A stretch of 64,000 bases of DNA from assembly GCA_026986375.1 (NCBI GenBank), contig JALSOQ010000016.1, positions 1 to 64,000 of the forward strand. Reading direction: 5' to 3'. A program made the position numbers and the translations under genes. Positions 41,741-52,838 of this stretch are shown in pieces. The stretch comes from Archaeoglobaceae archaeon (lineage in GTDB: Archaea > Halobacteriota > Archaeoglobi > Archaeoglobales > Archaeoglobaceae). Position 1 is the stretch's first letter; every line of letters starts with the position of its first letter. Below the pieces are notes generated by a model that was not told where the DNA came from, did not search any database, and saw only the letters and a program-made list of their open reading frames with translations.

Positions 41741-41989
41741 TCACTTCATCAGCTTGAGAATCTCCTGTTTAAGCTGTTCCTTCGTAGGAACCTCCCCTCT
41801 GAAAAGAACTTCCTCGCCGAAAGCTATGGAAGGTGTCGAAGCCACGTTGAACTGTAGAGCGGTTATGAGATCCTTTTCGATGTCTATCTCTTCATACTCA
41901 AGCCCAAGTTCCTCGGCAACCTCCTTAGCAATAGCCTTAGCGTTCGGACACTGCGGACAGTCCTTTTTCGTGAACACTATCAACTTCAT
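41741..41989 (-). CDS. glutaredoxin/thioredoxin-like redox protein
   Basis: An 82-residue thioredoxin-fold protein with the redox motif CPQC in VFTKKDCPQCPNAK (~12) and the cis-proline loop STPSIAFG. Its small size and NrdH-like layout fit an electron donor for ribonucleotide reductase or a general disulfide reductase. The longer reading to 42070 would run through a guide RNA gene on the other strand; ATG 41989 starts the fold exactly and has a TATA element 26 bases upstream (about 42011-42020). It is followed by nrdG after 4 bases. Confidence 0.85.
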   Translation of the reverse strand: MKLIVFTKKDCPQCPNAKAIAKEVAEELGLEYEEIDIEKDLITALQFNVASTPSIAFGEEVLFRGEVPTKEQLKQEILKLMK

Positions 41990-42010
41990 GTTCGATGCTC
42001 GGGGGACATT

Positions 42011-42020
42011 GTTTATATTG
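42011..42020. promoter_or_regulatory. TATA-like element facing both the guide RNAs and the glutaredoxin gene
   Basis: GTTTATATTG is about 27 bases before the expected 5' end of the first C/D RNA on the plus strand (about 42040). On the minus strand, read as CAATATAAAC, it is about 26 bases before the glutaredoxin ATG (41989). One element may serve both directions, or two promoters overlap. Confidence 0.45.
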
Positions 42021-42037: not shown

Positions 42038-42098
42038 GTTGGATGATGATTGAATCCAATCCTGAGCCAAGCGATGATGACGTAGCCCGCGCCTGAAA
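42038..42098 (+). ncRNA. C/D box guide RNA 1 (2'-O-methylation guide)
   Basis: Box C ATGATGA (42043-42049), a 12-base guide TTGAATCCAATC, box D' CTGA (42062-42065), an 8-base spacer, box C' ATGATGA (42074-42080), a 12-base guide CGTAGCCCGCGC and box D CTGA (42093-42096). Both guides have exactly 12 bases between boxes, as in archaeal C/D RNAs, where the base paired to the fifth guide position before D or D' is methylated. The second guide is complementary over about 10 bases to CGCGGGCTAC, a sequence I recall from archaeal 16S rRNA (tentative). Ends are approximate. Confidence 0.85.
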
Positions 42099-42103
42099 AT
42101 ATT

Positions 42104-42160
42104 TCCGATGATGACCCCTCCCCTAACTGAAAAAATGATGATTGCCGATTTCTCTGAGGT
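42104..42160 (+). ncRNA. C/D box guide RNA 2 (2'-O-methylation guide)
   Basis: Box C ATGATGA (42108-42114), a 12-base guide CCCCTCCCCTAA, box D' CTGA (42127-42130), a 4-base spacer AAAA, box C' ATGATGA (42135-42141), a 12-base guide TTGCCGATTTCT and box D CTGA (42154-42157). It starts 11 bases after box D of guide RNA 1, so the two are probably one precursor. Expected targets are TTAGGGGAGGGG and AGAAATCGGCAA in rRNA or tRNA, which I cannot place. The 3' end touches the last bases of nrdD on the other strand. Ends are approximate. Confidence 0.85.
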
Positions 42161-44244
42161 TATCCCAAATTAACCCTCTTTCTGTCGAAAAGTTCTTTCC
42201 TCTTACCGTCGTTCCAACCGCTAACCCTTTGATAGTAACCCGTCACCCTCGAATACCATTCCACGTTGCTACTACCGCAGTTCGGACAACTCTTTTTAAT
42301 TCCTCCGCTGAGGTTCTTACAGTCTCTGCAGAACGTCATGTCCTTCGTGTAGGCCCAGTAACCGATGAGCGTCTTGGTTGCGATCTTCTTGGTGAGTTCC
42401 CATAGGAGTTCGGGATTCGGAGAACTCTCGCCGATCCAAACGTGAGCCATCATACCTCCGTTGCAGAGCGGGTGGAAAGCCCCCTCTATCCTGAGCCTCT
42501 CGAACAGCGGAACGTCCGCACTGACTCTCACATGGGATGAGTTGGTGTAGTAGACCGCACCGGTCTTAACATCACCCTGCACGACCGCCTTTCCGTTGAA
42601 CTCCTTCAGATCGAGCAAAGCCAATCTGTGTGATGCTGATTCCGCCGGAGTCTGCGTTATCACCCATCTCTGTCCCGTCTCCTCGCTCCACTCCATCGCT
42701 ATGTCCATCATCCTCTTGATGACCTCCAATCCGAACCTCCACGCATCCTTGCTTTCGTGCAACTCTTCTCCGGTATGAGCCTTGAGCATCTCGTTCAATC
42801 CGACGAAACCTATCGATCTAACGACCTTATCCACTCTGTAATACGGCTCACCGTTCACGTCCTGCGTTAGGAACGGCAGAGACCCTTGCTTCATTCTCTT
42901 GAGTATTATATCTCTCTTGATCTCTATAACTTCTCTCGCAAGCTTCATCCTCTCCTCAAGCAGTTCGAACAACTTCTCGTCGTTTCCGTTGGATTCGTAG
43001 GCTATCCTCGGAAGGTTTATCGTAACCACTTGCAGACTTCCGGTTCTCATGCAACCGTTCTTGAAATCCTCCCAATCGGTGTTATCTGGCGAAAGGACTA
43101 ACCTGCAACATTGAGCGAATACGTTATCGGGCAGATAGCCGGCCAATAGGTTGAGGAAGTAAGGAGAACCGTATTTTGCAACGACCTTATGCACGAGGAT
43201 CATGAACTCGTCGAAACCTTCCTTCTTGAAGCACTCCCTTCTGAGCTTGTAGTTGGGCTTGGGGAAGAAGAACGGCTTTCCTACGTAATCCCCCTCCAAG
43301 TAAACCTCCGTCAAGGCACGAGCGAACATTATCGCCTCTTCCTCGAAGTCTCCGTAAGTTATGGAATCCTTAACGACACCTCCGGGCAGAACGGCTGGCA
43401 AATCTTGACAGATCTTCGGAACTCCGTATTCTATGTCTATGTCGCTGAAAACTACCTGCCCACCCCTCGCCACATACATTTGGCTTAATTCGTAAATGAA
43501 CATCTGAGCAAGCTGTTTAATCTCCTTATACGTTTTTCCGGCCATGTAAGGTGCAAGCCAGACGTTGAAGAAATCCAAACCCTGCCCACCGGCGAAGTTC
43601 GTCTGTGCCGCAGCCAGAGCCTTAGCGGCGTGCAGAATAGCTACTTCAGCGTTCTTAGCCGGCCCAGCTACTGCGGTGTTCTCTCCAGTTCCATCAACTT
43701 TAAGCCCGTTCTTCAAGAACCACCTCAAGTCGTGCTGGAAGCAATACGGACGGGTTACGAAGTATTCCAAGTCGTGGATGTGGATCTCTCCCCGCATGTG
43801 TGCGTCAGCCAGATGAAGGGGAAGAGCCTTCAGTAAGGCGTATTCCTTCATCACCCAGTCAGCGACGAGCTTGTGGATAGTTTCGGGGTTGTGCTGAAGG
43901 TTTGCGTTCTCCCTAACTCCCTTCTCTATTATCTGGGTTGCGTCGTAAACCGGTAACCCCAAACGGGTGTAATCCCTCCTTGCATCCTCAAGTCTCCTTT
44001 CGAGCAACTTTACGTTCACAATCTCTCTGATCAGCGGGGCGGAGATGAACTTCAGCTTGAGCTTCTTGATGGTCTCTTCAACTTCCAACGCTATCTCTTC
44101 CGCGATTTCCTTGGAGATTCCTGTCTCTTTAATAAGAGATTGAACTATTTTTCTCCTGTCAAAGCTTTCGAGCATGTTTCTGGAGGTTCTGACCGTCAGA
44201 AACTCCTTGTTGTGATCGTATTCGGTATCGAATGTTTCGGGCAT
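42160..44244 (-). CDS. nrdD: anaerobic (class III) ribonucleoside-triphosphate reductase
   Basis: A 694-residue glycyl-radical enzyme that reduces ribonucleotides to deoxyribonucleotides without oxygen. An N-terminal ATP-cone lies at ~15-105 (VRTSRNMLESFDRRKIVQSL). The ten-stranded barrel follows, with YCFQHDLRWFLKNG and FAGGQGLDFFNVWLAPY. The C-terminal zinc site is CRDCKN and CPNC, and the radical glycine is expected in SRVTGYYQRVSGW (~670). No intein. The ATG at 44244 is chosen because the frame before it has no family similarity. The gene lies upstream of the glutaredoxin-like gene, nrdG and thyX, with guide RNAs in between on the other strand. Confidence 0.93.
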   Translation of the reverse strand: MPETFDTEYDHNKEFLTVRTSRNMLESFDRRKIVQSLIKETGISKEIAEEIALEVEETIKKLKLKFISAPLIREIVNVKLLERRLEDARRDYTRLGLPVYDATQIIEKGVRENANLQHNPETIHKLVADWVMKEYALLKALPLHLADAHMRGEIHIHDLEYFVTRPYCFQHDLRWFLKNGLKVDGTGENTAVAGPAKNAEVAILHAAKALAAAQTNFAGGQGLDFFNVWLAPYMAGKTYKEIKQLAQMFIYELSQMYVARGGQVVFSDIDIEYGVPKICQDLPAVLPGGVVKDSITYGDFEEEAIMFARALTEVYLEGDYVGKPFFFPKPNYKLRRECFKKEGFDEFMILVHKVVAKYGSPYFLNLLAGYLPDNVFAQCCRLVLSPDNTDWEDFKNGCMRTGSLQVVTINLPRIAYESNGNDEKLFELLEERMKLAREVIEIKRDIILKRMKQGSLPFLTQDVNGEPYYRVDKVVRSIGFVGLNEMLKAHTGEELHESKDAWRFGLEVIKRMMDIAMEWSEETGQRWVITQTPAESASHRLALLDLKEFNGKAVVQGDVKTGAVYYTNSSHVRVSADVPLFERLRIEGAFHPLCNGGMMAHVWIGESSPNPELLWELTKKIATKTLIGYWAYTKDMTFCRDCKNLSGGIKKSCPNCGSSNVEWYSRVTGYYQRVSGWNDGKRKELFDRKRVNLG

Positions 44245-44367
44245 AATTACCAGTAGATTCGAGACTTTAAAAATTTGCTGCTTAATATACATTTGATCCA
44301 GATGAAATAGAGTCCAGACTAAATATTTAACTTTGATTTGGATATATTTTCGATAAGAGAACCGGAG

Positions 44368-52013: not shown

Positions 52014-52838
52014 ATGGACGATATAAAGGTAGCAGTTCTGAGAATAGAAGGAACGAACTGCGAGGACGAGACGGTTAAAGCCTTCAGAAGTTTAGGTGTT
52101 TGGGCGGAGGCAGTTCACCTCAAGCAGTTCTACAGCGACATGATAAAGGAGGAAGAGCAGAGGAGCATTTTCGACTATCACTGCATAGTTTTCCCCGGCG
52201 GATTTTCAGCCGGAGATTACGTTAGGGCCGGTGCGATCTTCTCGGCGAGGGTTAAGAGCGTTTTGAAGAGGGATTTGGAAGAGTTCATAAAGGAGGGTTT
52301 CCCCGTCTTGGGTATTTGTAACGGATTTCAGGTTTTGGTAGAATTGGGTGCTCTGCCGGGGTTCGACGAGGACAAGCCCTTAGCGGAAAAACCCGAGATG
52401 GCTTTGGGTATAAACGAGTCGAACAGGTTCGAGTGCAGACCGTGTTTTCTCAAGCACGAGAACAGAGGGAAGTGCGTTTTCACTAAGAGGATAGAGAAGG
52501 GAAGGATTTTGATGTTTCCCGTCGCTCACGCGGAGGGGAGGGTAATTTTTCCGAAAGGGAAGGAGGAGGAATACGTCGAAAGACTAATAGAAAACGATCA
52601 AATCGTCTTCAGATACGTCGACGACGACGGAAACTACGCCGGCTATCCTTGGAATCCGAATGGGTCGATATACAACATAGCGGGGATATGCAACGTCAGG
52701 GGCAACGTCTTCGGTCTGATGCCTCATCCGGAAAGAGTTTTCTGGAGATATCAGCATCCGAACTGGGAAGAAGCTGAAAAGCCCGGTGACGGGAGGGTTG
52801 TATTCGAAAGCGTCATCGATTACCTCAGAACTCTCTGA
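52014..52838 (+). CDS. purQ: phosphoribosylformylglycinamidine synthase glutaminase subunit
   Basis: A 274-residue class I glutamine amidotransferase, the PurQ subunit that supplies ammonia to PurL in purine synthesis. Seen: IKVAVLRIEGTNCEDETVKA, the oxyanion strand VFPGGFSAGDYVRAGAIFS, the nucleophile in PVLGICNGFQVLVELG (~100), and His-Glu in GLMPHPERVFW. The ATG at 52014 is used; the TTG at 52008 is two codons earlier. It is longer than bacterial PurQ (about 225) by an internal insert typical of some archaea. purL and purS are not in this window. Its last 14 bases overlap a small opposite-strand gene candidate. Confidence 0.93.
   Translation: MDDIKVAVLRIEGTNCEDETVKAFRSLGVWAEAVHLKQFYSDMIKEEEQRSIFDYHCIVFPGGFSAGDYVRAGAIFSARVKSVLKRDLEEFIKEGFPVLGICNGFQVLVELGALPGFDEDKPLAEKPEMALGINESNRFECRPCFLKHENRGKCVFTKRIEKGRILMFPVAHAEGRVIFPKGKEEEYVERLIENDQIVFRYVDDDGNYAGYPWNPNGSIYNIAGICNVRGNVFGLMPHPERVFWRYQHPNWEEAEKPGDGRVVFESVIDYLRTL

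Follow-up and report, generated by a model that had tools for sequence, protein, structure and literature searches.

Two box C/D guide RNAs lie head to tail in a contig of an Archaeoglobaceae archaeon (JALSOQ010000016.1), and their closeness raises the question of whether they are made separately or cut from one precursor. The window analyzed here is the whole stretch of 64,000 nucleotides (nt) from positions 1 to 64,000 of this contig. A preliminary description of the locus had proposed that the second RNA lacks a promoter of its own and that a dicistronic transcript is implied.

The box and guide layout of both RNAs can be read directly from the DNA (Table 1). In the first RNA (RNA 1), boxes D′ and C′ are separated by the 8-nt spacer GCCAAGCG. 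The second RNA (RNA 2; 42105-42159, forward strand) is a complete double-guide box C/D sRNA with the order C, guide, D′, AAAA, C′, guide, D. All four of its boxes are consensus, and a single copy was found in the genome. The letters thus confirm the earlier account of a second full box set 11 nt past the first box D, with 12-nt guides and a 4-nt spacer. An outer CC (42105-42106) and GG (42158-42159) would be able to close a C/D kink-turn in RNA 2. The GG directly adjoins TTA (42160-42162), the nrdD stop codon on the opposite strand, which bears out the claim that the 3′ end of RNA 2 touches this stop. The ends first proposed, 42104 and 42160, are right to within a few bases, as plausible ends drawn from sequence alone. 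No complementary outer stem is present in the RNA 1 flanks, which counts against the reading favored below. RNA folding predicts no more structure than is found for shuffled sequences, but this argues neither way since it is expected of RNAs with exposed guides.

Table 1. Positions of the two C/D sRNAs and adjoining features in the window.
Feature	Position	Strand	Sequence or remark
Redoxin (thioredoxin/glutaredoxin-like), downstream of nrdD	41741-41992	-	Pfam Thioredoxin_3, E 6.9e-14
Likely BRE/TATA element of two-RNA unit	42005-42020	+	GACATTGTTTATATTG; core TTTATATT at 42012-42019
RNA 1, whole C/D sRNA	42043-42096	+	guides TTGAATCCAATC, CGTAGCCCGCGC; boxes read directly
RNA 1 box C	42043-42049	+	ATGATGA
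RNA 1 D′ guide	42050-42061	+	TTGAATCCAATC, 12 nt
RNA 1 box D′	42062-42065	+	CTGA
RNA 1 box C′	42074-42080	+	ATGATGA
RNA 1 D guide	42081-42092	+	CGTAGCCCGCGC, 12 nt
RNA 1 box D	42093-42096	+	CTGA
Junction, RNA 1 box D to RNA 2 box C	42097-42107	+	AAATATTTCCG, 11 nt
RNA 2 box C	42108-42114	+	ATGATGA
RNA 2 D′ guide	42115-42126	+	CCCCTCCCCTAA, 12 nt
RNA 2 box D′	42127-42130	+	CTGA
RNA 2 D′-C′ spacer	42131-42134	+	AAAA, 4 nt
RNA 2 box C′	42135-42141	+	ATGATGA
RNA 2 D guide	42142-42153	+	TTGCCGATTTCT, 12 nt
RNA 2 box D	42154-42157	+	CTGA
nrdD, anaerobic ribonucleotide reductase	42160-44292	-	Pfam NRDD, E 6.8e-176; converges on sRNA pair

Both RNAs have the features of archaeal box C/D sRNAs: ordered C, D′, C′, and D boxes with 10-12-nt guides, rRNA-complementary guides beside D and D′ in which the fifth nucleotide is paired, and conservation in relatives. 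A search of the 1.46-Mb genome with the pattern TGATGAN{9,14}CTGAN{3,22}TGATGA gave 28 matches, compared with 0 for the reversed pattern used as a control. Three of these matches come from the RNA 1-RNA 2 locus, one of them running across the junction, and most of the remainder extend to a full C-D′-C′-D arrangement (27 strict sets, with overlapping readings counted). The genome therefore carries some two dozen box C/D RNAs, and it also encodes fibrillarin (E 1.2e-70). Rfam models applied to the window at gathering thresholds detected three tRNAs only and gave no match at RNA 1 or RNA 2.

Several unusual arrangements of C/D boxes occur elsewhere in this genome. A three-guide C/D RNA (G000:C10:52985-53060; L029 1500-1575, L123) has the form ATGATGA-g1-CTGA-GTC-GTGATGA-g2-CTGA-CCG-ATGATGA-g3-CTGA, in which the spacer is 3 nt long at either junction. 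Its relatives have three guides in G003 and G004 and two in G050 and G015, and a compelling match to rRNA is lacking for each of its own three guides. A possible three-guide array at L043 (G000:C16:103033) reads TGATGA-g-CTGA-GATG-TGATGA-g-CCGA-CCGG-TGATGA-g-CTGA. At L032 (G000:C10:54246 onward), two convergent C/D sRNAs have D boxes that, by eye, overlap in the palindrome CTGATCAG. Finally, L036 (G000:C13:88681) is a C/D sRNA apparently located within a tRNA intron, which we take to resemble the classic tRNA-Trp intron type.

Guide targets were sought in the 16S and 23S genes of this same genome, with E. coli numbering taken from an E. coli operon. Each guide was shuffled 1000 times (400 times for the D′ guide of G050), and predicted methylation sites were assigned by the N+5 rule. 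The RNA 1 D′ guide forms 11 base pairs (bp) with 16S rRNA around G939 (E. coli ∼962), a strong match that is equaled by 1 of 1000 shuffles. The match of the RNA 1 D guide is moderate, with 10 bp around 16S G1211 (E. coli ∼1231; 76 of 1000). These two predicted sites flank the helix-30 region of 16S rRNA on both sides. For RNA 2, the D guide gives a strong match of 12 bp, including one G-U pair, at 23S A1797 (E. coli ∼1669; 1 of 1000). For the D′ guide, the match is 10 bp, including two G-U pairs, at 23S G1882 (E. coli ∼1764), which is not significant by itself (397 of 1000). However, the Ferroglobus-type D′ guide of G014, CCCCTCCCCTAG, differs by one base and matches this same stretch over 11 bp in the 23S rRNA of G014 itself. 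The G1882 target is supported by this result, since the G014 guide and its 23S rRNA differ from those of the window and yet pair there. Site 995 in 23S rRNA is an alternative for the CCCCTCCCCTAA guide that was placed below 1882 because the best match of the G014 guide to its own 23S rRNA is at the 1882 stretch. A different D′ guide in G050 has a weak 7-bp match a few bases onward in this stretch (32 of 400 shuffles). Both guides of each RNA thus map to one rRNA, RNA 1 to 16S and RNA 2 to 23S.

Guides of both RNAs are conserved across relatives although the flanks differ. Homologues of RNA 1 with the same guides are present in three congeneric species (G001, G002, and G004) and in another genus (G010 and G060). 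In G015, from a third genus, the RNA 1 guides occur in swapped order (L007; G015:C31, ∼52722-52748). The swap looks as after circular permutation (circular forms of C/D sRNAs are known) or recombination within a tandem copy, or else it may reflect convergence on the same targets. A match to RNA 1 in G050 (L058) shares only the D′-C′ region, and its guides differ.

Full-length homologues of RNA 2 were found in G014 and G053 (Ferroglobus MAG record WAQS01000140). Three more genomes (G050, G015, and G013) came from a search with only the box-D guide; in these the D guide is kept and the D′ guide is different. Conservation of the core of the box-D guide thus extends to five genomes from three other genera. 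All five homologues have CCG ahead of the box C ATGA and GG behind box D. Their D guide ends in TTTGCCGATT(T/A)-CTGA, whereas the window has TTGCCGATTTCT-CTGA, so that the register has slid 2 nt relative to every homologue. Under the N+5 rule, the predicted methylation site would be C1799 in the unslipped register and A1797 in that of the window. Four weaker candidates were set aside: L054 (G001), a weak BLAST match that proved to be a separate C/D-like RNA whose guides are different; L053 (G010), a weak BLAST match without a box set; and L119 (G016) and L122 (G024), D-guide pattern matches without a full box set.

The adjacency of RNA 1 and RNA 2 is absent in every relative examined; G015 holds both, on different contigs. 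Among 57 genomes of the order that were searched, the tandem is seen in this genome only. It is therefore most likely a derived state, in which two genes of a well-known type have recently become paired. In the window, the sRNA pair is antisense to, and in a spacer of, an opposite-strand run composed of nrdD, the redoxin gene, a gene for a radical SAM protein (probably nrdG), and thyX. A comparison of the region downstream from nrdD in other Archaeoglobales, proposed in the preliminary description, located the pair in none of the relatives examined: neither RNA was present in the nrdD 3′ flanks at 12 loci, one of which ends at a contig end. In G001, G002, G003, G015, and G051 (L067-L071, L074-L078), nrdD has a long in-frame insert at about residue 270-284, probably an intein. 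The nrdD gene of the window is uninterrupted, unlike those of the insert-bearing relatives.

Promoter-like sites were scored with a BRE+TATA matrix trained on the sequences upstream of 29 tRNAs in this genome (median site score 15.2); in all but one of them, the site ends 21-25 nt ahead of the tRNA. A BRE/TATA-like site starting ∼36-42 nt ahead of box C is present for most sRNAs of the genome. RNA 1 has such a site at -38 from box C with a modest score of 5.3 (P 0.07 against random 60-nt stretches, position free). None was found upstream of the RNA 2 box C, where the best score is -6.6, a value that 90% of random stretches equal or beat. In contrast, the five lone homologues of RNA 2 have a TATA/BRE-like site at -38 to -40 from box C with scores from 4.1 to 13.3; two of these five sites rank second within their stretch. 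Since RNA 2 is without the site that its lone homologues have and RNA 1 has one, the best reading is one promoter that gives a two-RNA precursor. A precursor of ∼120 nt is thus supported as the most economical interpretation of these sequences, and both the missing RNA 2 promoter and the dicistronic transcript of the preliminary description are upheld by the comparison.

If RNA 2 had a promoter of its own, it would have to be an unrecognized one, located inside RNA 1 or of non-consensus form. Some other sRNAs here are also without a good promoter score (e.g., in L028, L036, and L044), and two other close clusters (C10, set GCTAATCCGCAC; C26, set AACCCATCGGGT) each have a separate promoter-like site for the downstream member. 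However, the score of the 60 nt ahead of the RNA 2 box C ranks near the 10th percentile of random sequence, and the bases at -38 belong to an RNA 1 guide and C′ box, which are functionally constrained. A separate promoter is therefore unlikely, and the sites in C10 and C26 make the RNA 1-RNA 2 pair exceptional within its genome.

Under the single-promoter reading, RNA 1 and RNA 2 would be transcribed together from a promoter at ∼42005-42020. L7Ae, Nop5, and fibrillarin would bind every C/D and C′/D′ unit of both RNAs, and the unprotected linker at 42097-42107 would be cut or nibbled off to leave two sRNPs. RNA 1 is then predicted to guide 2′-O-methylation of 16S G939 and G1211, and RNA 2 methylation of 23S A1797 and probably also G1882. 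Cotranscription, trimming, sRNP assembly, and methylation are inferred from sequence, and we assign the proposal as a whole a probability of about 0.78.

A transcript that stays unsplit would instead act as one four-guide RNA bridging regions of 16S and 23S rRNA. The 11-nt linker between box D and box C barely exceeds the D′-C′ spacer of RNA 1, a three-guide C/D RNA exists in the same genome, and four-guide dimeric RNPs have been proposed to join distant rRNA sites (PMC4644070). Against this, the homologues of RNA 1 and RNA 2 are separate in relatives, and the GG/CC closing pair is kept in the window and in all RNA 2 homologues, as for a separate terminal kink-turn. We consider an unsplit RNA very unlikely, and it is highly improbable that the pair remains joined and, as one RNP with four guides, keeps sites in 16S and 23S rRNA together while ribosomes assemble. 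That RNA 2 is a decaying, functionless copy, as its slipped register might suggest, is exceedingly improbable, since the 12-nt pairing with 23S rRNA persists despite the slip and the sole copy found in the genome keeps four consensus boxes.

The RNAs themselves are no different from common archaeal double-guide C/D sRNAs, with which they share the C-guide-D′-C′-guide-D layout, consensus boxes, 12-nt guides, N+5 rRNA targets, and a genome that encodes fibrillarin; only their head-to-tail placing, with one likely promoter for the two, is uncommon. Archaea are already known to have C/D sRNAs in clusters and in dicistronic units, C/D genes whose location changes, and guides that slip. Archaeal C/D sRNA genes occur in clusters of two or three, and their maturation depends on internal boxes rather than flanks (PMC7994747). 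The internal boxes and sRNP assembly are indicated to define the mature RNA, with exposed ends processed off (PMC7994747); clustered and dicistronic genes are described by Tripp et al. (2017), here as far as that work is reviewed in PMC7994747. Such clusters and the tRNA-sRNA precursors of Nanoarchaeum (PMC3491384) likewise comprise two RNA genes apparently in one unit, the second promoterless. The present pair differs in consisting of two C/D sRNAs with an 11-nt gap between them, and in that RNA 2 is without the site that its relatives have.

Similar precedents exist for the guides. The arrangement in RNA 1 is like that of Nanoarchaeum equitans sR15, whose guides target both sides of the 16S helix-30 region (G930 and G1217, compared with G939 and G1211, each in the species' own numbering; PMC4644070), a likeness in target placement. 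In Methanopyrus sR24 and sR25, the predicted target of methylation is displaced a few nucleotides by indels beside the D guide (PMC4644070). Those RNAs are duplicates within one genome, whereas the predicted shift in RNA 2 is between species, the register having slipped 2 nt with 23S complementarity kept. The pair is a clean comparative case of a C/D sRNA gene that appears to have no promoter and to form the downstream part of a precursor; in sister genera, RNA 2 still stands alone with a promoter-like site. Because promoter loss in tandem and guide slip are both known in outline, the gain is an example and not a principle.
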